This document shows, one piece after another, positions 10,684 through 33,022 of a stretch of 34,025 bases of DNA. Numbering within the stretch: the first letter of the stretch is position 1; each line of letters opens with the position of its first letter. Made by a program: the position numbers and the translations under genes. Under the pieces are notes generated by a model. It worked only from the letters and a program-made list of their open reading frames with translations. It was not told the DNA's origin and did no database searches. Source of the DNA: Arthrobacter sp. HMWF013 (GTDB lineage Bacteria > Actinomycetota > Actinomycetes > Actinomycetales > Micrococcaceae). Location: positions 1-34,025 of the forward strand of contig NZ_QAIQ01000032.1 in assembly GCF_003061105.1 (NCBI RefSeq), given 5' to 3'.

Positions 10684-11964
10684 TCATTGGCCGAGACGCG
10701 CCATCTCCTCACCCATGGCCTGCGCAAACACGGCGCCTGGCACATTCAACACGTCGAAATGGATGCCGCAGCACAGGTTGCCCGCGTATGAGACCGCGGC
10801 GACGCCGAGCCGCACATTGCCGGCGAGTACCGCAACCGGCCAGAGCGCAGCGACCGGGGCTCCCGCAAGCCGGAACGTGCCTTCCGGACCCGGCACGTTG
10901 GTGACAAACCCTCCCACCAGATGCTGCCGCCGGGCGAGGTGGTCCATGATGCGCGCGCCCACCGGGCCGCGCATGAACTCCAGGGTGCCCTGGTCCCTGG
11001 CCTGTGGTTTCTCCGCACGGGTCTGCGCGGTGATGAGCCGCAAGCGCTCATCAGGATCAGGCTCCCCAAGCGGTAGCCGCACAAGCATGACTCCCACCTG
11101 GTTCGCGGCAGGCCCCTGCCGCCGCAACGCCACAGGCTCAGACACCGGCAGCCAAGCGGGAACGGGCTCACCGGCACTCATCAAGGCTGCCCGGAAGCCC
11201 GCCGCCGCTGCTGCGAGCAGTGCATCGTTGACCGTGGCACCCCGCGGACGCACCACCGTCTCGAGGGCTTCGATTTCTGTACGCACAAACGCGACGCCGT
11301 GGTGCGCGCTGCGCTCCCCGAGCAGCACCGTGCCGCCCACGCCACGGCCCCACAAGGTCATCCGGATGCGGCGCAGGCCGATCCTCAGCCGGCGCAAAGT
11401 GCGGCGTGGATCGCTCCGCGGGCGGTTTCGGGGTGCCTCCGCCAGCCCACGCGTAGGCGGCCCGTTCCCCGCGTCCTCTCCCGGTTCGCCGGGATCAAAG
11501 AGCTGCTGCACAATCACCGCTGCCGTCATGCCGTCGGCCACCGCGTGATGGATGCGCAGCACTACACCGGGTCCCCTCGCCGTGGCACCCGGGACCAGCA
11601 GGATCTCCCACAACGGCCGGTCCCCTGCGAGCGGCTGGCCCATGAGCTCGGCGCATCTCTTTTGAAGTCCCGCGAGACCGTCGACGGGATCCACGAGACG
11701 GATGTGGTGTTCGACGTCGGGCGTGGATTCGATCCAGTGATGCCGGCGGCCCACTCGGACTGCTCTTTTGCGGAGCGCCGGCACCTCCGCTATCCGCTCG
11801 CGGAGGACCGCCCGCAGCCGGGCCATGTCCGGTGACCCGTCCACGGCCAGGAAACCGCCCGGCTCGAGCAGGCAAGCGACGAGGAACACGTTGACCTGGC
11901 CTGCGTGGTCGAGCACCAGGTTCGCCTCGTCGGCAGGGGCCAGCTTCTGCGTCGCCGGGTGCAT
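10684..11964 (-). CDS. WS/DGAT family O-acyltransferase
   Basis: A 426-residue wax ester synthase/diacylglycerol acyltransferase. The condensation-type active site H-H-A-V-A-D-G lies at residues 139-145, preceded by D-R-P-L-W-E (115-120). The C-terminal T-N-V-P-G-P motif is present. The family joins acyl-CoA to diacylglycerol or a fatty alcohol, making storage lipid at the inner membrane; which acceptor is used cannot be told. The ATG at 11964 starts the conserved N-terminus (M-H-P-A-T-Q-K-L-A-P-A-D-E-A-N); the frame is open to 12060 but the extension is not family-like. No ribosome site is seen. A TACTGT -10-like box lies 6 bases upstream, so the mRNA may be leaderless. It is divergent from the lipoprotein/ECF operon, 113 bases away. 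Confidence 0.9.
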   Translation of the reverse strand: MHPATQKLAPADEANLVLDHAGQVNVFLVACLLEPGGFLAVDGSPDMARLRAVLRERIAEVPALRKRAVRVGRRHHWIESTPDVEHHIRLVDPVDGLAGLQKRCAELMGQPLAGDRPLWEILLVPGATARGPGVVLRIHHAVADGMTAAVIVQQLFDPGEPGEDAGNGPPTRGLAEAPRNRPRSDPRRTLRRLRIGLRRIRMTLWGRGVGGTVLLGERSAHHGVAFVRTEIEALETVVRPRGATVNDALLAAAAAGFRAALMSAGEPVPAWLPVSEPVALRRQGPAANQVGVMLVRLPLGEPDPDERLRLITAQTRAEKPQARDQGTLEFMRGPVGARIMDHLARRQHLVGGFVTNVPGPEGTFRLAGAPVAALWPVAVLAGNVRLGVAAVSYAGNLCCGIHFDVLNVPGAVFAQAMGEEMARLGQ

Positions 11965-11976
11965 GTCTCGACAGTA
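11962..11976 (-). promoter_or_regulatory. Putative -10 element for leaderless WS/DGAT mRNA
   Basis: On the minus strand TACTGT is followed by six bases (CGAGAC) and then the ATG at 11964. The hexamer is the same one found at the betB promoter, with nearly the same distance to the start codon, and there is no convincing ribosome site. Confidence 0.4.
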
Positions 11977-12065
11977 ACCGGGAAACAGCCGGCCTGTCAG
12001 TTGAACTTCTTGGAGACCTGACGTCACACAACGCGACGGCATCCCGCTCAGGGCAGGCAACGCCC

Positions 12066-12080
12066 TACCCTTGACAGGTG
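12066..12080 (+). promoter_or_regulatory. Putative -10 element for leaderless lipoprotein mRNA
   Basis: TACCCT (12066-12071) fits TAnnnT and is followed by six bases (TGACAG) and the GTG at 12078. No ribosome site precedes this GTG. A clear -35 box is not seen. Confidence 0.4.
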
Positions 12081-12632
12081 ACTTTGACTAAGATCCGCAC
12101 CGCCGCCGCGAGCTCCCTCGCCGCCGCCGGTCTCCTGTTTACCCTCGCCGCCTGTTCCGCACCGGCCGCCACCCAGCCCACTACCGCGCCGGCTACAACG
12201 GCAGCCGCCTCATCCAGCGCCGCCTCCGGGCCCTGCACCGGCGTAAAGGTGATCGTCGATTCGGGCGCCCTGAAGCAGGATGCCGCTGACAAGTCCGTGT
12301 GCGTGCCCGTGGACGCCCCCACCGCCGCTTCCAAGGTGCTCGAAGAGGCCGACGTGAAGACAGAAGGCACCACGCAGTACCCCACCGAACTCGTGTGCCG
12401 CGTGAACGGCGTGCCGGCAGCGGACTTCGACATCACCCACAAGGCCGGCACGTACAAGGAAGAATGCACGGGCATGCCCGCCGCCTTCGCGTACTGGTCG
12501 CTCTGGGTTAAGCCCGACGCCGGTGCCTGGGAATACGCCCAGGAAGGCCTCGCCACCCTGCAGGTCAGCCCGGGCCAGAGCCTGGAACTGCTCTTCACGG
12601 TCGACGGCGAACCGGCCGCCCCCGCGGCATGA
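12078..12632 (+). CDS. SCO2322-like lipoprotein next to ECF transporter
   Basis: A 184-residue secreted lipoprotein. A signal peptide ends in lipobox L-A-A-C with Cys26 as the lipid anchor. A Thr/Ala/Ser-rich spacer follows, then a compact domain with four Cys (C-T-G-V, S-V-C-V, L-V-C-R-V-N-G, E-E-C-T-G), enough for two disulfides, and A-Y-W-S-L-W-V-K-P. This pattern matches the SCO2322/DUF4430-type proteins often encoded beside ECF transporters in actinobacteria, where a transcobalamin-like or extracytoplasmic helper role is suspected. It overlaps the transporter gene by four bases (ATGA at 12629-12632), so the two are co-translated. The role as substrate capture protein on the outer face of the membrane is inferred. 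Confidence 0.7.
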   Translation: MTLTKIRTAAASSLAAAGLLFTLAACSAPAATQPTTAPATTAAASSSAASGPCTGVKVIVDSGALKQDAADKSVCVPVDAPTAASKVLEEADVKTEGTTQYPTELVCRVNGVPAADFDITHKAGTYKEECTGMPAAFAYWSLWVKPDAGAWEYAQEGLATLQVSPGQSLELLFTVDGEPAAPAA

Positions 12633-15463
12633 CCTTCCGACCCGCGCCGTTACGCGCGGCGGCAGTCCTCGCCGTCGTGTTCATCGCGGCGCGGGTCATC
12701 TACCGCGTACTTTTCAACGGCGCGGGTATCGGTGAACCGGTCCTGCTGGACCTGCCGGGGATCCGGCTGCCTGCTCCGTACGCGCATGTTGTCCTCCTCG
12801 GTCCCGTCACCGCGCCCGGGCTGTGGCAGGCGGTCCTGTCCGCCCTGCCGATTGCCGGGATGTTCCTCGGTTTCGGCCTGCTCAATGCTTTTGTGGACAT
12901 CTCCCGCGGCTTCGTCCACCTGGCCCGCGGCGGACCCATGCAGGGCGTTGCCCGCATGCTTGTGGTGGCGTGGGCGGCGCTTCCGGCCCTTGCCGACGCC
13001 GTGACCTCCGTACGCCTGGCCTTCCGGTTGCGCGGCGAACGCTTCGGACCCCGCGCCCTGGTGCCCGTGCTCGAGCGCACCCTTGAGCACGCCAGCCGGG
13101 TCGCCGCGGCCCTGGAGCTGCGCGGCTTCGGGAGCCGGGCCGCACACTTACCCGGCCAAGGCACTGAACCACCGGTTCTCGTGAGGGACGCACAATTCCG
13201 CATCGGCGACGCCCAGGTGCGGATCGCCAGATTCGCCCCGTCGCCCGTGTCAATTGCCGTCATCACCGGACCGACGGGCTCCGGCAAGTCCACCATCCTG
13301 CGGGGCATCGCGGGCCTCCTCTCCCACGTTGACGGCGGAGACATCTCCGGCACCCTGAGCCTCGCCGGAGCCGACCGTGCCGCCACGCCGCCGCGCGATA
13401 CCGCCCGGCTCATCGGCGTCGTCCTGCAGAATCCCCGCGCCGCGTTCGCCACCAGCCGGGTCCGGGACGAAATTGGCCTCGCCCTTGAGCTGCGCGGCGT
13501 CGCAGCCGTGACCGCCAAGGCGCGGGTGCTGGAGGTCGCGGAGAGCATCGGGGTGACTGCGCTCCTGGACCGCAATGTCAGCACTCTCTCGGCCGGTGAG
13601 GCAACGCTTGTGGCCATCGCCGCCGCCGTGGTGGAGCAGCCGGCACTGCTCCTGGTTGACGAGCCCCTGGCCGACCTTGACAGCGCAGCACGCGGACACG
13701 TCATCGCCGTGCTCCACGCCCTCGCCCGGGAAGCAGGCGTCTGCGTCATCGTGGCGGAACACCGCGCGGAACCGCTCGTACCCGTCGCCGATTCTTGGTG
13801 GACCATCGACGACGGCGCCCTGGTACCGGGTGCCGCACCGTCGCCGTCGCCCGCCGTCGTTTCCCGTCCGACGCCGGCCCAGCCAGCAGAGCACGCGCCC
13901 GTCCTGACTGCCACTAACCTCGCGGTGCACCGCAAGGGCAAACCGCTCGTGCGCGAGGCATCCCTGACCCTGCACCGCGGTGAAGTGGTGGCCCTGGTGG
14001 GGCCGAACGGCGCCGGGAAGTCGTCCCTCCTGGTGGCGCTCGCCCTTGGTGAGGGGACGGCTGGTGAAGGAACGCGCGACGGCGGCACGCTCGATGGCGG
14101 CCGCGTCGCCCTTGTGCCGGATGCCTCGGACGACCTCTTCACGAGGGATACCGTGGCAGGAGAGCTCCGCGCCGCCGAGCGTCGCCAGGGCCGCCGAAAG
14201 AGCGGTGGCCGGCCCTCGCCCGGCCCAGCAGCTTCACACCTTGCCCGGTTGCGGGGGGACGTCCGGATTCCCATTGGCCACGAGCATCCGCGGGACCTCT
14301 CCGCAGGCGAACGCAGGATCCTGGCCATCGCGCTGCAGACCATGGACAACCCGCAGGTCCTCCTGATTGATGAGCCTACCCGTGGCCTCGACCCTGCGGC
14401 GCGCACGGCGGTCGCGGCCGCGCTGCGGGCCGCAGCGGACACCGGCACGGCGGTCCTGATCGCCACCCACGACCACGACTTTGCGCACGGACTCGGCGCC
14501 CGGATCCTCCCCATGAGTGACGGCGTCGCGCCCTCACTCGGGCCCGAAGCCGTCCCGGCCAGTGCCGCCGCTGTCCCGGTGATCGCAGCACCACGGTTCA
14601 CCGACCAAGGAACAGACATTTCCGCTGCCAAGAAACAGCACCGCATCCGGATGCCACGGGGCGTCGAGGTCCCGGTCCTCGCCGCCGCAAACCTCCTGGC
14701 CCTCGCGGCATTCTGCTGGCCGCTGCTCGCTGCGGCGCTCCCGCAGGATGCCGCCGCGGCACTCCCCTACGCGGCGCTGGCCATGGCGCCCATCGCCGTC
14801 GTCGCCATCGTGGTATCCCTCGACGGCTCGGTCCGCTCGGCACACACGGTGGCACTGCTCGGTGTCCTGGCCGCAGTGGGTTCCGCAGTCCGGGTGGCGA
14901 GCACCGGCGTCGGGGGCGTGGAGGCAGTCTTTATCCTGCTGATCCTGGCCGGCAGGGCCTTCGGTCCCCGTTTCGGCATGCTCCTCGGCGCGGCCACGAT
15001 CGCGCTCTCAAGTGCCTTGTGGGGCGGCATCGGGCCCTGGACACCGTTCCAGATCTTCGCCTGTGCATGGGTGGGCGCGGGTGCCGGCCTGCTCCCCCGG
15101 CGGGTGCGCGGCAAAGCCGAACTGTGGATGCTGGCCGGCTACGGCGTCGTGGCGTCCTACCTGTTCGGCCTGCTGACAAACCTGTGGTTCTGGCCCTTCG
15201 CCGTGGGTTCCGGGACGGGCATCTCGTACGTCGCCGGCGCGCCGCTGGGCACCAACCTCAGCAGCTTTCTGCTCTACTCGCTGGTGACGTCGACGGCGGG
15301 CTGGGACACCCTGCGTGCCGTCACCACGATCATCGGAATCGCCGTGGTGGGACGTGCAATTCTCGCCGCCCTCCGCCGGGTAAAGCCGGTTTCCAGCGCG
15401 GGCGGGCAAGCCGTGCAGGCTCACTCCGACCTGGCCAGGGACCGGCTGCATATTGGGGCCTGA
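12629..15463 (+). CDS. Single-chain ECF-type transporter (T-A-A'-S fusion)
   Basis: A 944-residue protein that appears to hold a whole energy-coupling-factor transporter. Residues 1-180: membrane T-like part with the coupling-region sequences R-L-R-G-E-R-F-G and L-E-L-R-G-F-G. About 190-400: first ABC ATPase (Walker A G-P-T-G-S-G-K-S-T at 214-222; L-S-A-G-E at 320-324; L-L-L-V-D-E-P-L-A-D-L-D). About 430-650: second ATPase (G-P-N-G-A-G-K-S-S at 458-466; L-S-A-G-E at 557; L-L-I-D-E-P-T-R-G-L-D). About 680-930: six or so hydrophobic segments like an ECF S component. ECF modules are usually three or four proteins. The substrate is a vitamin or cofactor by family; cobalamin is a guess from the lipoprotein partner. 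Confidence 0.85.
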   Translation: MTFRPAPLRAAAVLAVVFIAARVIYRVLFNGAGIGEPVLLDLPGIRLPAPYAHVVLLGPVTAPGLWQAVLSALPIAGMFLGFGLLNAFVDISRGFVHLARGGPMQGVARMLVVAWAALPALADAVTSVRLAFRLRGERFGPRALVPVLERTLEHASRVAAALELRGFGSRAAHLPGQGTEPPVLVRDAQFRIGDAQVRIARFAPSPVSIAVITGPTGSGKSTILRGIAGLLSHVDGGDISGTLSLAGADRAATPPRDTARLIGVVLQNPRAAFATSRVRDEIGLALELRGVAAVTAKARVLEVAESIGVTALLDRNVSTLSAGEATLVAIAAAVVEQPALLLVDEPLADLDSAARGHVIAVLHALAREAGVCVIVAEHRAEPLVPVADSWWTIDDGALVPGAAPSPSPAVVSRPTPAQPAEHAPVLTATNLAVHRKGKPLVREASLTLHRGEVVALVGPNGAGKSSLLVALALGEGTAGEGTRDGGTLDGGRVALVPDASDDLFTRDTVAGELRAAERRQGRRKSGGRPSPGPAASHLARLRGDVRIPIGHEHPRDLSAGERRILAIALQTMDNPQVLLIDEPTRGLDPAARTAVAAALRAAADTGTAVLIATHDHDFAHGLGARILPMSDGVAPSLGPEAVPASAAAVPVIAAPRFTDQGTDISAAKKQHRIRMPRGVEVPVLAAANLLALAAFCWPLLAAALPQDAAAALPYAALAMAPIAVVAIVVSLDGSVRSAHTVALLGVLAAVGSAVRVASTGVGGVEAVFILLILAGRAFGPRFGMLLGAATIALSSALWGGIGPWTPFQIFACAWVGAGAGLLPRRVRGKAELWMLAGYGVVASYLFGLLTNLWFWPFAVGSGTGISYVAGAPLGTNLSSFLLYSLVTSTAGWDTLRAVTTIIGIAVVGRAILAALRRVKPVSSAGGQAVQAHSDLARDRLHIGA

Positions 15464-17150: not shown

Positions 17151-17981
17151 ATGGCTAGTCGTTCGATTCTTCTGCGTGTAGCGGCATTTGCACTTCTCAC
17201 CTGTTTACCCGCCTGTGCCGCCAATGCCCAGCAGGACTATAAGGACGCGAGGGCTAAATTGGACCCTGTATTGGGCCAAATCACTCTCCCTTTAGAGGCG
17301 TATGCAATGACCTCGTCCGAGGAACAAGAGGTCGCTCACGCGAACGCGCTTCTCCTTGATGAATGTCTGGCGAAAGGGGGACGCGACTTTCCACGTGCCT
17401 CCCAGGATTGGGAATCCATCCCCAACCTTCCGGACCGCAGGTACGGAGTCTGGTCCAATGCAGATGCGAAATCTAATGGATATGAATTTCCTGCACCCCC
17501 AGGATCTGCGGAACTGACAGCGCAGGAAGATGCATTGAGCGAAAGTTGGTGGTCAGCCTATCAAGCTTGTCAAAGCGATTTGAATCTGTTCCAGCCTTTA
17601 CGTCCTAATGGATCAAGTCAGAATTCACCTGTGGACCAAGGAATGCGCGAATCATTCGAAGCCTTGAAGGCAAGTGTTGAGTTCGCATCCGCACTCAAAG
17701 AGTGGACGAGTTGCGTCACTTCTAAAGGGCTGACACCAAACCCTGCTGACAACGCGATGGTCCCTGCTTTTCCGCCGGCCGGTGAAGAACAACTGCGGGT
17801 CGCCGCAATCGATGTCGAATGCAAGGAGTCCTTGAATAGCGTGCAGCCTCTGGCGGACTTCGAGGCACGGCATCAAATGGCATTCATAGCCCGGCACGAG
17901 AGCGAGCTGACCGAGCACCGGGCTCAAGTGGACAAGGTTTTAGCAGAAGCCCGGGAGGTGCTGGCTACCCGTGGAGGGTGA
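17151..17981 (+). CDS. Unrecognised lipoprotein of the ABC cassette
   Basis: A 276-residue protein with an N-terminal signal and a lipobox-like L-P-A-C (Cys22), so it is probably anchored on the outer face of the membrane. The mature part is mostly helical and acidic with Cys in C-L-A-K-G, Y-Q-A-C-Q, S-C-V-T and V-E-C-K, suggesting disulfides. The segment R-R-Y-G-V-W-S-N-A-D-A-K-S-N-G-Y-E-F-P is the most family-like stretch. The last 40 residues look like a single long helix. I cannot assign a domain. It abuts the gene before it (no own ribosome site; TAA-ATG junction) and is followed closely by the adaptor gene, so it most likely works with the adaptor and ABC permease, for example as a substrate- or wall-facing subunit. 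That role is inferred. Confidence 0.7.
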   Translation: MASRSILLRVAAFALLTCLPACAANAQQDYKDARAKLDPVLGQITLPLEAYAMTSSEEQEVAHANALLLDECLAKGGRDFPRASQDWESIPNLPDRRYGVWSNADAKSNGYEFPAPPGSAELTAQEDALSESWWSAYQACQSDLNLFQPLRPNGSSQNSPVDQGMRESFEALKASVEFASALKEWTSCVTSKGLTPNPADNAMVPAFPPAGEEQLRVAAIDVECKESLNSVQPLADFEARHQMAFIARHESELTEHRAQVDKVLAEAREVLATRGG

Positions 17982-18009
17982 GGCTTTCCCGAGGAGGGAC
18001 GAACCCAAG

Positions 18010-19092
18010 TTGCGCAGCTTGGCGCACCCAAAACGTACGTGGACATTCTTGGTTGTCTGCATCATGGTGGGAGCCCTGGCTTACGGCTTAGGGACTCGGG
18101 TCCGTTCCGCTGACGCTTCCATTCTTGATGCCCGTGCTCAGACAGTGCCCGTCTACGCAACAGTCGACAGCCGTTCGGTGACCGACGACGTGAGAATACA
18201 GGGGGAAGTAGTGGGTAGCGACAGCTATCAGGTACACGCGCAGCTTCCAGAAGGCACGCACCGTGCAGTCGTAACCGACACAGCTGTCGAGCATGGCACC
18301 CCTTTGACGAATGGCACGCTCCTAGGGGCCGTGTCTGATCGCCCTATCTTTGTCTTTTCACTGGAAATCCCACTTTTCCGCGACCTCAAGGCGAAGGACA
18401 AGGGGTCCGATGTCATAAGTCTCCAGAAGGCTCTTGGTGTTTCAATCACCGGCATAGTGGATTGGCAGACATTAGAAGCTGTGCGAAGCCTGTACGCGAA
18501 AGCGGAGATTATTCCGCCTGGCGGGTGGTGGGAGGGAACCTACGTAAGACTTAGTGAGTTTGCCTCCCTGCCACCAACAGATGGAACGCCTGTGGTCCGT
18601 ACTATTCCCGCGGTAGGGTCATTGCTTGAACCTGATGCTCCATTTGCCGAACTGAGCTTGGGCTCCAGCTTCGTTAGTTTACGAGCAAGCGTGCGTGAGT
18701 CTGACCAAATCACTGTCGGTGACGGAGTTTCAGTCCAAGTCCCAGGCGGTGTCATGGAACCTGCTGTGATCGCTGCGGTCGGAGAGTTTCAATCACAGGG
18801 CACCGCGGCCGGACGGCCGCCAGGTAAAGATATTCGCATTGAGTTACCGCAAGAGACCAAGCTTGCAGCCGGGCAACTTGTATCGGTGCTTTTTGGTTCC
18901 GCAACCGAACCTGTAACGGCGGTACCGACCCTGGCCATCAGGTCAGATGTCGATGGGGAGTACGTTCTGCGTCGCGATGCCAAAGAGGAAAAAGAACGAA
19001 TTCCCATAGTTGTCCTTCGAAACGCTAACGGATGGACAGCGCTTGAATCGGACGAACTTAGTCTCGGCGACGAAGTACTCGTTTCCCCATGA
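18010..19092 (+). CDS. HlyD-like membrane adaptor with peptidoglycan-binding insert
   Basis: A 360-residue protein anchored by one N-terminal membrane helix (W-T-F-L-V-V-C-I-M-V-G-A-L-A-Y-G-L). Outside the membrane, beta-rich HlyD/MacA-type segments (T-D-D-V-R-I-Q-G-E-V; A-Q-L-P-E-G-T-H) flank a PG_binding_1-like insert (K-D-K-G-S-D-V-I-S-L-Q-K-A-L-G). Such adaptors in Gram-positives sit between a MacB-type ABC permease and the wall. The TTG at 18010 was chosen because AGGAGGGA lies at 17993-18000; the frame also has a GTG at 17971 overlapping the previous gene, which would add 13 residues. Its stop overlaps the start of the ABC gene by four bases (ATGA at 19089-19092). Confidence 0.75.
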   Translation: MRSLAHPKRTWTFLVVCIMVGALAYGLGTRVRSADASILDARAQTVPVYATVDSRSVTDDVRIQGEVVGSDSYQVHAQLPEGTHRAVVTDTAVEHGTPLTNGTLLGAVSDRPIFVFSLEIPLFRDLKAKDKGSDVISLQKALGVSITGIVDWQTLEAVRSLYAKAEIIPPGGWWEGTYVRLSEFASLPPTDGTPVVRTIPAVGSLLEPDAPFAELSLGSSFVSLRASVRESDQITVGDGVSVQVPGGVMEPAVIAAVGEFQSQGTAAGRPPGKDIRIELPQETKLAAGQLVSVLFGSATEPVTAVPTLAIRSDVDGEYVLRRDAKEEKERIPIVVLRNANGWTALESDELSLGDEVLVSP

Positions 19093-21029
19093 CCGGAACA
19101 ATCCCTCAACTGTCCTTGCAGCAAGTTAGCCGGAGATATGGCACAGATCGGCAGTGGTTCGCCGTTCGGCAAGCAACGCTGGAAGTCGAACATGGCGAAT
19201 TTGTCGCAATTATTGGCCCCTCGGGCTCAGGCAAATCAACGCTCCTGAACATCATGGGGCTCCTAGATAACTCATGGGAAGGCTGCTTCGAGGTTGATGG
19301 TGTCCAAGTTAATAAACTCAGCAGCCCTGAGCGGGACAGGCTGCGTTCGAGAATGTTTGGCTTCGTCTTTCAATCCTCCTATGCGAATCCCTACGAATCC
19401 ACCGCGAGGAACGCGGCGCTGGGCTTAGCGATTCGGGGTGAAAGCCTCGACTATCAAGGCGTTGAGGTAAGCCGAGCACTGGAGACGGTCGGGCTGTCCG
19501 GCAAGGCCTCAAGTTTGGCCCGCAACCTTTCCGGGGGGGAACGTCAGCGTTTAGCGCTGGCCCGTGCGGTGGCCACCAACCCGCAGGTGATCCTGGCTGA
19601 CGAGCCCACCGGAAACCTCGATAGCAGCTCCACATCAAAAGTCCTGGAACTCCTAAAAGAGCTGAATCAGCGAGGAACGACTGTCATCGTCATCACGCAC
19701 GATCCAGCCGTCGCAGAGCACGCTGACCGTGTCATCGAAGTTAGGGATGGCGTAGTTACGGAGCCAGTTAAAGGACGTCAAGTACAAGTGCGCCAAGCGC
19801 CAATCGACGGCCCCATTCAGGAACGCATCCCCGCAAGGCAAGATCAAGGCATCCTCATTAGGACTACCAGACGCTGGCAGGAGCGAATTTTACGCGCAAT
19901 CAACAACGTGTCCTCACGCCCCCTCCGGTCAGCTACCTTGGTGGCAGCGTTCACGATAGCTATCGCTGGAATGATCACCGCCTCCGGCATAGGGGCGAGT
20001 GCATCTCAACAAATATCGGACAGACTTGCGTCGGCCGCCCTTGATGAAGTGCGCGTAGAAGTGCTGTCTGGCACAAGCCGTGAGGAGCGGCTGAATCGTG
20101 CTCAGACCATCAAGGGCCTGGCCCACGTAACGAACGTTGGTGAAATTGCCTCAATCGACGCCTCGCAGGCGAGGACATCACGTTTGGCACAGTTTCAAAG
20201 TGTTGATGGAAAAGCGTTTCCCGGAAGCACGGTTGCTGTCGACGAAGCAGCACTTTCCCTCTTTGAGGTTGAAACTTTCCCCCCACAAGCAGCGAAACTC
20301 TTCGGTTCAGAAGACGCAGGCAAGGTTGCACTGGTCGGAGAAGCCGTGTCTGAAAGGCTTGGCGTTCAGTGGGGCGGTTTCGGAGCAGAGGTGTGGGTGT
20401 CCGGTACGCCATACTCGGTCATAGGCACAATTTCTAGTGCACCCAGGGCCCAAAACCTCGCCACGAGCGTCGTCATACCCATCTCAGCCATCTCAAATCC
20501 AGCTTCACAACTCGTCGTACGCACAGACATCGGATTTTCGGCGGGTGTGGCCGAGGCCATTCCCCTGGCCTTGTCTCCTGCCGCGCCAGCGGAAGTAGCG
20601 GTGTCCACCACAGGAGACCTTCGAAACCTCAGAATTGGCGTCTCCCAAGACTTGGATGGTTTGCTGAACTCCATCTCTATCGCACTACTCGGGTTGGCCG
20701 TACTAAGCGCATCATCCGCTATGTTTTTGTCCGTTCAAACGCGGATTCAGGAGCTCGCACTGAGTCGTGCCCTCGGCCTTAGCCAGTCAGGCGTCGCAGC
20801 TATCTTTATCTGGGAAGGAATAATCGTCGGTTTCGCAGGATCCATCGCAGGTCTTTCTGTTGGCCTGGTGGCATCAGTTGGCGTATCTGCAGCGCAAGGA
20901 TGGACCGCGGTGATGCCGTGGTCCGCCGTGGCTCTAGCGCCACTCGTGGGCGTAGTTAGTGGTGCTGTGTCGGCGTTTCTCCCGGCGGTAAGGGCGGCAC
21001 GGATTGATCCTGCGGAAGCAATTCGCTAA
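19089..21029 (+). CDS. MacB-type ABC transporter, ATPase fused to FtsX-like permease
   Basis: A 646-residue fusion. Residues 1-235 are a LolD/MacB-class ATPase: Walker A G-P-S-G-S-G-K-S-T at 43-51, signature L-S-G-G-E-R-Q-R-L at 147, Walker B V-I-L-A-D-E-P-T-G-N-L-D. A short linker is followed by a permease with the MacB layout: one helix at about 278-302, a large extracellular domain (about 303-520), then three helices and the typical C-terminal A-R-I-D-P-A-E-A-I-R. MacB-type machines do not pump across the membrane by themselves; they move or release substrates on the outer side, such as lipoproteins, peptides or toxins. With the adaptor, lipoprotein and small secreted protein it forms one coupled operon. 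In gram-positives such units serve peptide export or peptide-antibiotic sensing; which applies is unknown. Confidence 0.87.
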   Translation: MTGTIPQLSLQQVSRRYGTDRQWFAVRQATLEVEHGEFVAIIGPSGSGKSTLLNIMGLLDNSWEGCFEVDGVQVNKLSSPERDRLRSRMFGFVFQSSYANPYESTARNAALGLAIRGESLDYQGVEVSRALETVGLSGKASSLARNLSGGERQRLALARAVATNPQVILADEPTGNLDSSSTSKVLELLKELNQRGTTVIVITHDPAVAEHADRVIEVRDGVVTEPVKGRQVQVRQAPIDGPIQERIPARQDQGILIRTTRRWQERILRAINNVSSRPLRSATLVAAFTIAIAGMITASGIGASASQQISDRLASAALDEVRVEVLSGTSREERLNRAQTIKGLAHVTNVGEIASIDASQARTSRLAQFQSVDGKAFPGSTVAVDEAALSLFEVETFPPQAAKLFGSEDAGKVALVGEAVSERLGVQWGGFGAEVWVSGTPYSVIGTISSAPRAQNLATSVVIPISAISNPASQLVVRTDIGFSAGVAEAIPLALSPAAPAEVAVSTTGDLRNLRIGVSQDLDGLLNSISIALLGLAVLSASSAMFLSVQTRIQELALSRALGLSQSGVAAIFIWEGIIVGFAGSIAGLSVGLVASVGVSAAQGWTAVMPWSAVALAPLVGVVSGAVSAFLPAVRAARIDPAEAIR

Positions 21030-28777: not shown

Positions 28778-29155
28778 GGGTTCTCCCTCTCCAGGCGCTA
28801 CGCGCAGTCACCGTAGCAGCCATCGTACGGTGTGCCCATCCAAGCTCGCGTCGGAGGACAGGTCATACCTGGCCCGGCATCCGCAAGCCGCTCTCCAACA
28901 CCTAGGGAGGCCCACGTCCCCTGACACAAAAGGGGAGGTCCCAAGAAATGAACGTCAAAAGCATTGCGTGTTGTTGATAAAGGAACTAAATTGCTTTCTA
29001 AGCAACGATGTGAGCTACGGCACATCGGATTGCGGGACCGGAACCCCCGGCCCAGTGGACTAGCTCCAATCCCGAGTGAGAGCGGGCCAGGCAAAGAGGC
29101 CCCCCGCTTTTCCCTTCAACCCAGTCCTGAACCAAACTTTCGAAAGGACCCCCTT
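28778..29155. promoter_or_regulatory. Divergent control region, second IclR gene / hydantoinase
   Basis: A 378-base spacer. A promoter for the hydantoinase reads TTGCGT (28964-28969), 17 bases, TAAATT (28987-28992). Overlapping the expected start is the dyad TTGCT-N5-AGCAA (28991-29005), followed by AGCAACGATGT and GTGAGCTAC, both shared with the amidase region. Nearer the IclR gene is CACCGTA-N10-TACGGTG (28807-28830). The leader of about 155 bases before the hydantoinase ATG contains C- and G-rich runs but no fold that I can name. Confidence 0.5.
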
Positions 29156-32100
29156 ATGAAGCGCATCGGAGTAGACGTCGGCGGTACATTCACCGACCTG
29201 TATTTTTCGGACGATGATCAGCGCATCGCCGTTGTGGAGAAAGTTCCCTCCACCCCGCACGACCCATCTGAGGCCGTGATCAACGGCATCATAAAGCTCT
29301 GTGCGAAGGCCGGGGTGTCGCTTTCGGAGATCGACCAGCTGGTGCATGGAACCACGGTTGCCACGAACACCGCATTGACGCACACCGGGGCGGAGGTCGG
29401 GATGATCACCACCGAGGGTTTCCGGGACATCCTGCACATCGCCCGGCACAAGAAGCCGTACAACTTCTCCCTCCAGCAGGATCTGCCCTGGCAGACCAAG
29501 CCCCTGATCAAGCGCCGCCATAGGCTCACCGTCAAGGAGCGCATCACCGCGCCGAACGGCGACGTCCTGGTTCCGCTGGACGAGGACGAGGTCCGTGAGC
29601 GCGTACGCGAGCTGAAGGCGGCCGGCGTCGAGGCCATCGCCGTCTGCCTACTGCACTCCTACTTGAATGCCGCCCACGAGCAGCGGATCGGGGAAATCGT
29701 CGCGGAGGAGTTCCCCGAGGCCTATCTGTCCCTGTCCAGCGAGATCGTGCCCCTGTACCGGGAGTACGAACGGTTCTCCACCACCGCGCTCAATGCCTAT
29801 GTCGGGCCCCGGGTCTCGCGTTACCTCTACCGCCTGCAGGAGCAGGCCGAAGGATTGGGTTACAAGCGGGAGATCCTGCTGATGCAGTCCTCAGGCGGCA
29901 TGGTCCCGATCAAGGAGGCCGCCAAGCGGCCCGTCACACTGATGATGTCCGGACCGGTCGGCGGCCTGATCGGCGGCATGTGGGCCGGTCGCCAGTCCGG
30001 CTTCGAGAACGTGGTCACCCTGGACATTGGGGGGACCTCAGCGGACATCGGTGTGGCCTACCAGGGTGAACTGCGCATGCGCCACCTGCTGGACACCAAG
30101 ATCGGCGACCACCAGGCAATGGTCCCGATGGTGGACATCGACACCATCGGCGCAGGCGGCGGCTCCATCGCCTATGTCGACGCCGGCGGGGTCTTCCGCG
30201 TCGGTCCGCAGTCTGCCGGCGCCGTTCCTGGCCCGGTCTGCTACGGCCGCGGCGGTACGGAACCGACATCAACTGACGCCCAGATGCTGCTGGGGCGCAT
30301 GCGCCCTGACCGCGTCCTGGCAGGCTCAGGCATGGATCTGGATCTCGATGGCGCCCGAAAGGCCATGGAAGGCCTCGCCGAAAAACTCAACATGTCAGTG
30401 GACCAGGCCGCCCTCGGCGCCCTGCAGATCCAGAAGTTCGGCATGACCCAGGCAATCGAACAGAACTCCGTCCGCCGAGGCTACGACCCACGTGACTTCA
30501 CCCTCGTCGCGGCAGGCGGCGCCGGCGCACTCTTCGCCTGCGAGATCGCCGCGGAGCTGGAGGTCCCGAAGGTACTGATCCCGGCCCACCCCGGCATCAT
30601 GGCCGCCACCGGCCTGCTGGCCACAGACGAGAAGTACGAGTTCGTCGCCACCAGACGGTTCACGTTCGCCAGCGCGGACCCCGCCGCCATCCAGGGTTCG
30701 TATGAACAGCTGGAGCGCGAGGCCAACGCCCAACTCGATGCCGAGGAGGTGCCAGCCGGACGCCGCAAACTCGAATGGCTCGCGGACGCGCGCTACGAGG
30801 GCCAGGGATACGAGATCCGCTTCACTGCCCCCGAGGGGCCGGTTAACCAGGCCTGGCTGGAAAAGGCCGAGGCAGCCTTCCACGACGCCCACTTCGAGGA
30901 GTACGGCCACCGCTTCAAGAACGGCACCGTGGAAGTCATCAACATCCGCGTGGAGGCCAGCGCCCTGATGGATGACCTGCCCACGCCGGAAGCGATCAAG
31001 TCCGGTTCCCTTGACGACGCCCTGGTGGAAACCCGCCCGGTGACCTTTGAACAGGATGGCAGGCCGGTCACCCTGGACACGGGCTTCTATGACCGCGACA
31101 GGATGGGCGTGGGAATCACCTTCACCGGCCCCGCCATCATCGAGCAGTACGACTCCACCACAGTTATTCCTCCGGGATTCTCCGGAGCGGTGGATGCGGC
31201 CGGCAACCTCGTCATCGACTGCCCGGCGGCCACCCAGAGCGCCGAGAAACTGGCCACGCCGATCCTGATGCGCGTGATCGGCGGTGCCCTGAACTCCGCG
31301 GCCAAGGAAATGGCGTCGGTGCTGTTCCGCATGGCGTACTCATCGATCATCCGCGAGTCCGAGGACCTCGGTGCAGGGCTGTTCGACAAGGACGGCAACG
31401 TGCTGGCCGAGTCCGACTCCACGCCAATGTTCATGGGCTCGATGCCCAAGATCGTCAAGGGTGTGATCTCGGTCCTCGGCGATGACATCCACGACGGTGA
31501 CATCATCCTGCACAACGATCCCTACCTCGGCGCCACGCACTCCCCCGACGTTGCGATCATCGAACCGATCTTCCATGACGGGGAACTGGTCGGCTTCGCC
31601 GGCGCCTCGGGCCAGCTGATCGACAACGGCGGTGCGTACTCCGGGCTGATGGTGGACATCCAGGACATCCAGTCCGAAGGCACCATCTTCCGAGCGGTGA
31701 AGATTTCCGAGAAGGGCGTCCGCCAGGAATCGCTGATCCGGCACATCCTCAACAACACCCGGACACCCACCTCCAACGAAGGCGACTTCCAGGCGATGAT
31801 CGCCGCCTGCGAGCTGGCCAAGTCCCGGTACATTGCCCTCATCGAGCGGTACGGATTCGGCGCGGTCCGCGAGGCCGGCCAGAGCTGGATCGACTACTCG
31901 GAGCGGATGCTGCGCCAGGAGATCGCCAAGATCCCCGACGGCGTCTACGAGACCGAGGTCGGCTACTTGGACGACGACGGCCGCAACTACGGCAAGAAGC
32001 TGCCGATCGTCGTGAAGGTGATCATCGAGGGTGATGAGATTACGTACGATCTCACCGGATCCTCCGAACAGGTTCCCACCGCTTATAACTGCGCTTTTGA

Positions 32101-33022
32101 GGGGACCACGGTCTCGGCGTTCACGTTCATCACCCGGATGATATTCCTGGACGAGGTTGCCTTCCCGGTGTTTGTGCCCCAGAACGAGGGCATGCTCAAG
32201 CCGCTGAAGGTCATCGCCCCGGAGGGCACCATCTTCAACCCGACGTACCCGGCCGCGACCTTCTCGCGGTTCTCCCAGGTACAGCGGGCCGTCGACTTGG
32301 CCCTGCGGGCCCTCGCCCCGGTCATCCCGGAGCGCGTCACCGCCGGCAACTCCGCCCACATCCACTTCATCTCCTACTCAGGATGGGACGAGAAACAGGG
32401 CGAGTACTGGGTCTACCTCGAGGTCAACGAGGGCTCCTACGGCGCCCGCGCCACCAGCGACGGGCCGGACTCCGTGGACAACCTCATCGCCAACACGCGC
32501 AACAACCCGATCGAGGAGCTCGAGTGGCGGTTCCCCATGCGCACCGACCGCTACGAACTGCGTTCCGAGCCGGCGGCCGCCGGTGAATTCCGCGGCGGCA
32601 TCGGCATCGTCCGGGAGAACACCTTCCTGACGGACACCGCGATCACCTGTGAGGGTGAACGCCATGAGTCGGACGTGCCGTGGGGAGCCTTCGGCGGCCA
32701 TGACGGCCTCAACGGCTCGCTCGTGAAGAACGTCGGCCGGGCGGGCGAGGAGTCCTGGCCGTCCAAGGTCACCGGACGTCAGCTGCTGGCCGGCGACTCC
32801 CTGCAGATCACCGTGCCCAGCGGTGGTGGCTTCGGTGACCCGCAGAAGCGGGACCCGCTGAAGGTCCTCGAGGACGTGCTGGACGGCTTTACGACCGCCG
32901 AGGCGGCCGCCCGTGACTACGGTGTGGTCCTCAAGGAGGTCAACGGCCAACTCACGGTCGATCTGCGGTCAACCGCCGAACGCCGCGGGGTTTTGGTCGC
33001 CGAGCTCAGTTCCGCAACCTAA
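29156..33022 (+). CDS. Fused HyuA-HyuB ATP-dependent hydantoinase (N-methylhydantoinase)
   Basis: A 1,288-residue fusion. Residues 1-700 are HyuA-like: an N-terminal actin-fold motif R-I-G-V-D-V-G-G-T-F-T-D, H-G-T-T-V-A-T-N-T-A-L-T, and D-I-G-G-T-S-A-D-I-G. From about 703 the HyuB-like half starts (V-I-G-G-A-L-N-S-A-A-K-E-M, then R-E-S-E-D-L-G-A-G-L-F-D). Together they hydrolyse a five-membered lactam with ATP. The same architecture and length occur in eukaryotic 5-oxoprolinase, so that is the main alternative. The amidase and regulators nearby favour N-methylhydantoin to N-carbamoylsarcosine. In the well-known bacterial N-methylhydantoinases the two parts are separate subunits. The ATG at 29156 has ribosome site GAAAGGA at 29142-29148. 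Confidence 0.9.
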   Translation: MKRIGVDVGGTFTDLYFSDDDQRIAVVEKVPSTPHDPSEAVINGIIKLCAKAGVSLSEIDQLVHGTTVATNTALTHTGAEVGMITTEGFRDILHIARHKKPYNFSLQQDLPWQTKPLIKRRHRLTVKERITAPNGDVLVPLDEDEVRERVRELKAAGVEAIAVCLLHSYLNAAHEQRIGEIVAEEFPEAYLSLSSEIVPLYREYERFSTTALNAYVGPRVSRYLYRLQEQAEGLGYKREILLMQSSGGMVPIKEAAKRPVTLMMSGPVGGLIGGMWAGRQSGFENVVTLDIGGTSADIGVAYQGELRMRHLLDTKIGDHQAMVPMVDIDTIGAGGGSIAYVDAGGVFRVGPQSAGAVPGPVCYGRGGTEPTSTDAQMLLGRMRPDRVLAGSGMDLDLDGARKAMEGLAEKLNMSVDQAALGALQIQKFGMTQAIEQNSVRRGYDPRDFTLVAAGGAGALFACEIAAELEVPKVLIPAHPGIMAATGLLATDEKYEFVATRRFTFASADPAAIQGSYEQLEREANAQLDAEEVPAGRRKLEWLADARYEGQGYEIRFTAPEGPVNQAWLEKAEAAFHDAHFEEYGHRFKNGTVEVINIRVEASALMDDLPTPEAIKSGSLDDALVETRPVTFEQDGRPVTLDTGFYDRDRMGVGITFTGPAIIEQYDSTTVIPPGFSGAVDAAGNLVIDCPAATQSAEKLATPILMRVIGGALNSAAKEMASVLFRMAYSSIIRESEDLGAGLFDKDGNVLAESDSTPMFMGSMPKIVKGVISVLGDDIHDGDIILHNDPYLGATHSPDVAIIEPIFHDGELVGFAGASGQLIDNGGAYSGLMVDIQDIQSEGTIFRAVKISEKGVRQESLIRHILNNTRTPTSNEGDFQAMIAACELAKSRYIALIERYGFGAVREAGQSWIDYSERMLRQEIAKIPDGVYETEVGYLDDDGRNYGKKLPIVVKVIIEGDEITYDLTGSSEQVPTAYNCAFEGTTVSAFTFITRMIFLDEVAFPVFVPQNEGMLKPLKVIAPEGTIFNPTYPAATFSRFSQVQRAVDLALRALAPVIPERVTAGNSAHIHFISYSGWDEKQGEYWVYLEVNEGSYGARATSDGPDSVDNLIANTRNNPIEELEWRFPMRTDRYELRSEPAAAGEFRGGIGIVRENTFLTDTAITCEGERHESDVPWGAFGGHDGLNGSLVKNVGRAGEESWPSKVTGRQLLAGDSLQITVPSGGGFGDPQKRDPLKVLEDVLDGFTTAEAAARDYGVVLKEVNGQLTVDLRSTAERRGVLVAELSSAT

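Follow-up and report, generated by a model that had tools for sequence, protein, structure and literature searches.

A single-chain ECF-type transporter in Arthrobacter, probably a cobalamin importer, encoded with a transcobalamin-like lipoprotein

Introduction

Can one gene encode an entire energy-coupling factor (ECF) transporter and, if so, what would that transporter carry? The question is raised by a stretch of 34,025 nucleotides from Arthrobacter sp. HMWF013 (contig NZ_QAIQ01000032.1, positions 1 to 34,025; hereafter the window), in which a lipoprotein gene overlaps a gene for a protein of 944 residues. An initial annotation had read this protein as a T-like membrane part, two ATPases and an S-like membrane part joined in one chain, and named no vitamin as its cargo. 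Our analysis leads us to conclude, with a probability of about 0.8, that the chain is a complete ECF-type importer in one polypeptide and that its cargo is cobalamin (vitamin B12 or a close corrinoid), taken up mainly for the methionine synthase MetH. Cobalamin is strongly indicated as the substrate by the fold of the lipoprotein, by riboswitches, by neighbouring metH genes and by co-occurrence with B12-binding domains. For the S part and the lipoprotein the assignment comes from fold and from homologs; neither is assigned through a direct sequence match to a protein whose ligand is known.

A conserved pair of overlapping genes

The two genes overlap at 12629-12632, where the sequence ATGA serves both.

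12078 to 12632, + strand: lipoprotein gene, 184 aa from GTG (open reading frame)
12629 to 15463, + strand: gene for a single-chain T-A-A'-S ECF transporter, 944 aa from ATG (open reading frame, Pfam, T profile, S model)

A scan of species genomes returned 58 loci, 55 of which, from Arthrobacter and Pseudarthrobacter, were matched over most or all of the chain; the other three were left out, their match being confined to the ATPase part. The 55 orthologs match at 71-90% identity, with four conserved domains and variable linkers, and a lipoprotein gene lies upstream of the chain gene in every one of them (55/55), so the pairing is not due to chance. The in-frame overlap is ATGA in 47/54 orthologous loci and GTGA in 6/54, and the remaining locus, L044, has ATGA with a broken T frame. 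We also considered whether the fusion could be a sequencing artefact, and rejected this because the full open chain is kept in 53 of the 55 orthologs. Frame changes break the other two: in L044 the open part starts at about residue 197, and L051 has no long frame.

The four parts of the chain

The domains follow each other in the order T (residues 1-172), ATPase 1 (185-405), ATPase 2 (424-632) and S (about 675-921).

12629 to 13144, + strand: short form of a T-like domain, residues 1-172 (42-sequence T profile against EcfT chains; hydropathy)
13181 to 13843, + strand: ATPase 1, residues 185-405, with Walker A at 214, Q-loop LQNP at 266, signature LSAGE at 320, Walker B at 340 and EHR at 375-379 (Pfam, alignment)
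13898 to 14524, + strand: ATPase 2, residues 424-632, with Walker A at 458, signature LSAGE at 557, Walker B at 578 and ATHD at 612; Asp498 in the Q-loop (Pfam, alignment)
14525 to 14656, + strand: linker from ATPase 2 to the S part (alignment)
14657 to 14818, + strand: two additional N-terminal helices of the S part (model helices 3-21 and 31-56)
14819 to 15391, + strand: S-component core (model, Foldseek, VIA)

The T domain ends in two coupling-type (RG-type) motifs, FRLRGERFG and LELRGFG, which can be read directly from the sequence; two motifs of this kind are present in EcfT. A profile built from 42 T parts matched the solved EcfT chains 4hzu_T (1.2e-10), 4huq_T (1.4e-10) and 5d3m_D (1.4e-9), mainly over the second half of the profile, and together with the motifs this identifies an EcfT/CbiQ-type scaffold. 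Pfam CbiQ matched the window protein weakly (residues 60-169, E 0.0051, 16.9 bits, below the 25-bit cut-off), and a stand-alone T relative matched it at 7.5e-10, above the cut-off. Eight stand-alone T frames from related loci (L116, L118, L120, L126, L127, L128, L135 and L138) measure 339-389 aa from the first start codon and have about two hydrophobic segments before the shared core and four after it, all absent from the fused chains.

Pfam found two ATP-binding cassette stretches (ABC_tran; 2.4e-40 for the whole protein), both with intact core motifs, that is, Walker A, signature, Walker B and His. Across the window and 54 orthologs both Walker A motifs are invariant save for the Pro of ATPase 1, which is present in 52/55. 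In the Q-loop of ATPase 2, Asp498 (window 14120-14122) takes the place of Gln, and Asp is found there in 54/54 Arthrobacter orthologs as well. By crude motif patterns, in which an empty cell means that the pattern missed, seven of the fused or half-fused relatives L107-L114, eight in number, carry Asp or Glu at this position (L108 was unreadable), whereas the Gln is retained in 29/30 displayed systems with separate subunits, the exception being L118, the sister row in the tree, which has Asp. This replacement in the fused lineage suggests that the two ATP sites would be unequal.

The S part was modelled from 50 sequences (pLDDT 87.5). In Foldseek, ranks 1-22 were all ECF S components (probability 0.91-1.00, E 0.018-0.71), with no match at E 0.001 or better. 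In VIA, ranks 1-21 were all proteins of the S-component fold, led by ThiT at Z 13.6, and the cobalamin protein BtuM scored Z 8.4 and 8.0. Nineteen of the 21 matches start at model residue 56-64, and 4m5b and 5x3x_M at 34-35. PF12822 (ECF_trnsprt, E <=0.01) matched 32/50 homologous S parts; Pfam gave no match, PF12822 included, for the S part of the window alone. The CbrT structure 6fnp was absent among the Foldseek and VIA matches listed for the model, which excludes nothing. Fold searches and homologs thus agree on a membrane-embedded S component at the C-terminus, where a membrane part unlike S would have refuted the initial reading, and with it every part of the chain as first annotated was recovered. 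The first helix of the S core also carries an AXXXA motif (A738-x3-A742, read from the sequence); over the 50 S sequences Ala predominates at the first position and is invariant at the second (A68 of the S alignment). AXXXA in the first S helix is described as the motif for docking to EcfT (PMC11109136). The closest S part, at 95% identity, is that of Pseudarthrobacter sp. AL07. From residue 632 to residue 680, the span between ATPase 2 and the S part, the aligned sequences have 44-71 residues (median 52).

The lipoprotein partner

12078 to 12155, + strand: signal peptide and lipobox (LAAC, C26), read from the sequence

The lipobox cysteine C26 is invariant in 12 aligned lipoprotein sequences. 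The initial annotation spoke of a four-Cys lipoprotein, which holds for the part past the lipobox (C53, C75, C107 and C130); counting C26, the total is five. Pfam returned no match for the window lipoprotein, and NF040672 (SCO2322_fam) matched it weakly (1.8e-5, 25.1 bits, cut-off 85).

Structure was more informative. The model of the mature domain (residues 50-184; pLDDT 93.4) retrieved transcobalamin structures at Foldseek ranks 1-12 (E 4.6e-3 to 1.6e-2, probability 1.00). VIA aligned it with transcobalamin, haptocorrin and intrinsic factor at Z 9.5-10.7 over 93-97 residues; the 15 best matches comprised 14 cobalamin-carrier entries and the bacterial protein 3u7z, and the next fold scored Z 6.0. 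The modelled mature lipoprotein thus has the beta-domain fold of the animal carriers, with which identity is 17-20% in the aligned parts. The animal carriers also have an alpha-alpha barrel domain and have no lipid anchor. The protein 3u7z (RUMGNA_00854 of Ruminococcus gnavus; VIA Z 10.1, 95 residues, root-mean-square deviation 3.2) has the same fold but is titled 'putative metal binding protein', unlike the cobalamin reading given here to the lipoprotein.

Riboswitches, metH and B12-binding domains

An S profile matched 42/149 genomes of the order and 52/198 of the phylum, the window's own genome being in both counts. We searched for the cobalamin riboswitch RF00174 in the own genome and, using stricter filters, in 80 S-bearing genomes; the S-bearing genomes G024, G108, G126, G179, G227, G272, G304, G320 and G338 lay outside this search. 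A same-strand match lies 0-10 kb upstream at 45/83 S places (43/80 genomes), and 43 of these 45 matches sit 3.3-6.3 kb from S. Eighteen of the 45 score above the Rfam gathering score and 27 below it (E 4.3e-6 to 8.3e-4 per genome). There were 141 RF00174 matches in all, and a rough model gives a chance expectation of about 0.2 for the 45 upstream of S. Opposite-strand matches within 15 kb were found at three S places, two of which also have a same-strand match. Looking for a riboswitch in related loci, as initially proposed, was therefore rewarded among the relatives and not in the fused lineage: none was found in the window or the own genome at the thresholds used, nor in the fused loci L107-L109 at E up to 0.1.

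Within flanks of at most 8 kb, a metH-like frame (about 1200 aa, with a MetH motif) lies downstream on the opposite strand in 32/54 Arthrobacter loci, within 250 bases in 22 of them, and two of these neighbours, when tested, proved to be MetH by TIGR02082. In twelve genomes of the order, picked from the match list, a frame of about 1200 aa with a B12-binding domain converges on S from 1.0-3.6 kb away. These genomes take in all ten fused-lineage genomes sampled besides the own one; two, G005 and G024, seem identical to loci L018 and L036 and are not independent of them.

Across the order, a B12-binding domain (E under 1e-10) occurs in 41/42 S-bearing genomes versus 21/107 others (Fisher p 7e-20, ignoring kinship). 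Within the window's family, the own genome, G005 and G024 have both S and a B12-binding domain; a B12-binding domain was not matched in seven of the eight sampled members that lack S, and the eighth gave a marginal match only. The single B12-binding match of the own genome lies in a metH fragment on another contig. CbiC was matched in 6/42 S-bearing genomes and not in the own genome, which therefore probably lacks de novo corrin synthesis.

How the fusion arose

Forty S places from the order and phylum matches were examined with their flanks, and at these loci the S gene lies beside the A-A gene. At 31 loci T, A-A and S are separate frames; at five (L110-L114) T-A-A forms one frame and S the next; three (L107-L109) have the complete T-A-A-S chain; and at one, L145, on a short contig, no T was found. 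Long frames around S in L123, L124 and L136 looked like further fusions and were ruled out as such, the ATPases lying in another, overlapping frame. Homologs of the lipoprotein were found at the profile threshold used in 14/40 loci, namely in 8/8 fused or half-fused loci and 6/31 separate ones; with the lipoprotein gene at every Arthrobacter locus, this bears out the first suggestion that the lipoprotein is the partner of the chain.

In a tree of 50 S sequences, a branch with 100/100 support separates the 18 fused or half-fused members from the rest. Together with the half-fused loci, the tree points to a fusion that probably proceeded stepwise, T having joined A-A first and S later. Attachment of S takes two changes on this tree, and one origin is also possible.

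Three of the loci with separate genes (L127, L135 and L143) were tested for the protein encoded further upstream, which matched SCO2321_fam (6.4e-27 to 1e-13), in each case below the 300-bit cut-off, and weakly matched toroid (squalene-cyclase/prenyltransferase) families. In these operons the SCO2321-like and SCO2322-like proteins look like the two transcobalamin domains encoded as two genes.

Upstream region and neighbouring genes

12022 to 12033, + strand: conserved 12-base box CGTCACACAACG, 44 bases 5' of the lipoprotein start (block in an alignment of 52 upstream sequences)
12066 to 12071, + strand: candidate -10 element (TANNNT type), six bases 5' of the GTG (upstream sequences, by eye)

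A relaxed 10-base form of the box is found at the same place in 48/54 Arthrobacter loci. The box may be regulatory, possibly as an operator that has replaced the riboswitch. A regulon was sought and rejected: the own genome has 1 exact copy of the 12-mer and 8 copies with one mismatch, that is, 9 against 11 for the reversed control. The TANNNT element, which we take to be a -10 motif, is present in 8/8 displayed upstream sequences of the 52 aligned, and its position six bases from the GTG suggests a leaderless mRNA.

Divergent from the operon, on the minus strand at 10684-12060, is a WS/DGAT-type acyltransferase gene. Farther away in the window, adjoining frames at 17971-21029 encode a protein of 373 aa of no clear family and one of 646 aa with an ABC ATPase plus an FtsX-like permease, a pair that we take to be possibly MacAB-like, and a single frame of 1352 aa at 28964-33022 holds both the A and B domains of hydantoinase/oxoprolinase.

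Weighing the evidence for cobalamin import

Several observations weigh against a cobalamin importer of this kind. A fold does not prove a ligand, and VIA Z scores below about 13 may mean a mere common helical-bundle arrangement, with five S-component rows near or above that value. By sequence, the S profile matched no Protein Data Bank (PDB) chain up to E 10, and the lipoprotein profile found no credible relative among PDB chains. A Pfam family of the transcobalamin-like (SLBB/DUF4430) clade was matched by 0/24 lipoproteins at E up to 1; because no member matches the family models of that clade, we name the lipoprotein transcobalamin-beta-like after its modelled fold and do not assign it to DUF4430. 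The SCO2321 toroid was found in 0/11 fused-lineage genomes, with a weak model that was convincing in one of three controls of the separate type (G094; G067 gave a marginal match far from its S locus and G119 none), so the B12 site may be half that of transcobalamin.

The genomic links have gaps as well. At 38/83 S places there is no same-strand RF00174 match upstream, and the own and nine other fused-lineage genomes searched have no match anywhere, so the riboswitch link rests on relatives. No metH lies in the flank examined at 22/54 Arthrobacter loci, and in the window itself metH is not adjacent. One S-bearing genome (G067) has no B12-binding match, and a B12-binding domain is present in 21 genomes of the order that lack S. 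The own genome also has metE over two frames, so B12 need not be essential. These frames (G000:C597:761-2990) are eight bases apart, which is either a broken gene or an assembly error.

A single-chain cobalamin importer remains our conclusion, and the alternatives differ in which part of it they change. The one that survives best, though we consider it unlikely, keeps the importer and holds that the lipoprotein does not bind B12 and is a structural or sorting partner, the S part taking cobalamin directly from the medium. In its favour, transcobalamin is represented by its beta half alone, and published accounts of ECF importers give them no soluble binding protein (PMC12075633, PMC7689651). 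The constancy of the lipoprotein gene, which mostly overlaps the chain gene translationally, argues against this, as do its best structural matches, cobalamin carriers with the sole exception of the Ruminococcus protein.

Less likely again, and clearly improbable, is that the cargo of the same importer is not complete cobalamin but a corrinoid precursor, either cobinamide or another cobamide. The riboswitch and metH links indicate corrinoids as a class, and ECF-CbrT transports both cobalamin and cobinamide (PMC5997447). Against a precursor stands the lack of CbiC in the own genome, in a search that had nucleotide-loop assembly genes outside its scope. MetH, moreover, requires a complete cobamide.

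We also find it very improbable that T-A-A' is a hub of group II type that serves free S components, the attached S being one client among others. Other ECF systems exist in the genome, as further CbiQ-type matches (C152 and C419) attest, but these have T proteins of their own, and the S gene beside the module in the relatives examined is the dedicated arrangement of group I, in which S is encoded with its own module; in the window S lies within the same chain. Scarcely credible, finally, is another vitamin or a metal (cobalt, thiamin, riboflavin or folate) with riboswitches and metH neighbours as incidental: the nearest S folds are indeed ThiT, FolT, RibU and Ni/Co S proteins, and the riboflavin S family PF07155 is also matched by 17/50 S members, but such matches reflect the general S fold, whereas riboswitch matches, metH adjacency and the transcobalamin-like lipoprotein agree on one substrate class.

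Comparison with known systems

The demonstrated importer of cobalamin and cobinamide is ECF-CbrT of Lactobacillus delbrueckii (PDB 6FNP), the solved complex of which has one copy each of T, A, A' and S (PMC5997447). The window chain has the same four functional parts; ECF-CbrT, in contrast, consists of four polypeptides, with a module shared among S components (group II), and the available text of that report describes no transcobalamin-like lipoprotein such as the window system has. CbrT is reported to dissociate from and rejoin its module in an ATP-dependent manner, expulsion not having been formally shown to be essential, and the authors suggest a comparison with a group I system (PMC12075633).

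Burroughs et al. (2007, PMC1796856) had earlier proposed B12 scavenging for transcobalamin-like proteins whose genes lie with those for CbiO/CbiQ. Those SLBB proteins resemble the window system in their extracellular transcobalamin-C-like domain and in an operon with a CbiO-like ATPase and a CbiQ-like permease; they differ in having separate genes, and the portion of that paper available names no S component and describes no T-A-A'-S fusion. The SCO2321/SCO2322-type operons of other actinobacteria (NF053823, NF040672) likewise have homologous surface proteins and the order T, A-A, S, often behind a cobalamin-riboswitch match; unlike the window they have separate subunit genes and a longer T, and the family matches are below curated cut-offs. 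Fusion of the two ATPases is known in ECF modules (A1-A2; PMC6828968), and the window chain additionally joins T and S. What is new is therefore the four-domain fusion with its tethered S part, B12 scavenging by related operons having been put forward before in PMC1796856. No earlier complete one-chain ECF transporter was found in titles and abstract openings among the literature matches listed.

Mechanism and significance

In the mechanism that we envisage, the lipoprotein would catch cobalamin outside the membrane and deliver it to the S domain. By way of the coupling helices of T, ATP hydrolysis would topple S and release cobalamin inside, where it would feed mainly the B12-dependent MetH. 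Because a linker of about 50 residues joins S to ATPase 2, S could undock but could not drift off or be exchanged. More tentatively, at somewhat under even odds, we propose that the chain is a tethered-S importer that takes up B12 without release or exchange of S, fed by a half-transcobalamin lipoprotein acting as its binding protein. If this is true, the locus would be a natural test of whether transport needs S expulsion, and the lipoprotein would be an extracytoplasmic cobalamin-binding protein of the sort that ECF transporters are said not to have.

For the group I comparison of S expulsion, a natural chain that cannot lose its S part would provide the test, and cutting the linker the control. 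With one gene of 2.8 kb in place of a four-subunit complex, expression and imaging may become simpler as well. For an actinobacterial family with little annotation the locus supplies a likely substrate. It also links bacterial relatives of the B12 carriers found in humans with one particular importer and, by way of metH, with one particular use.

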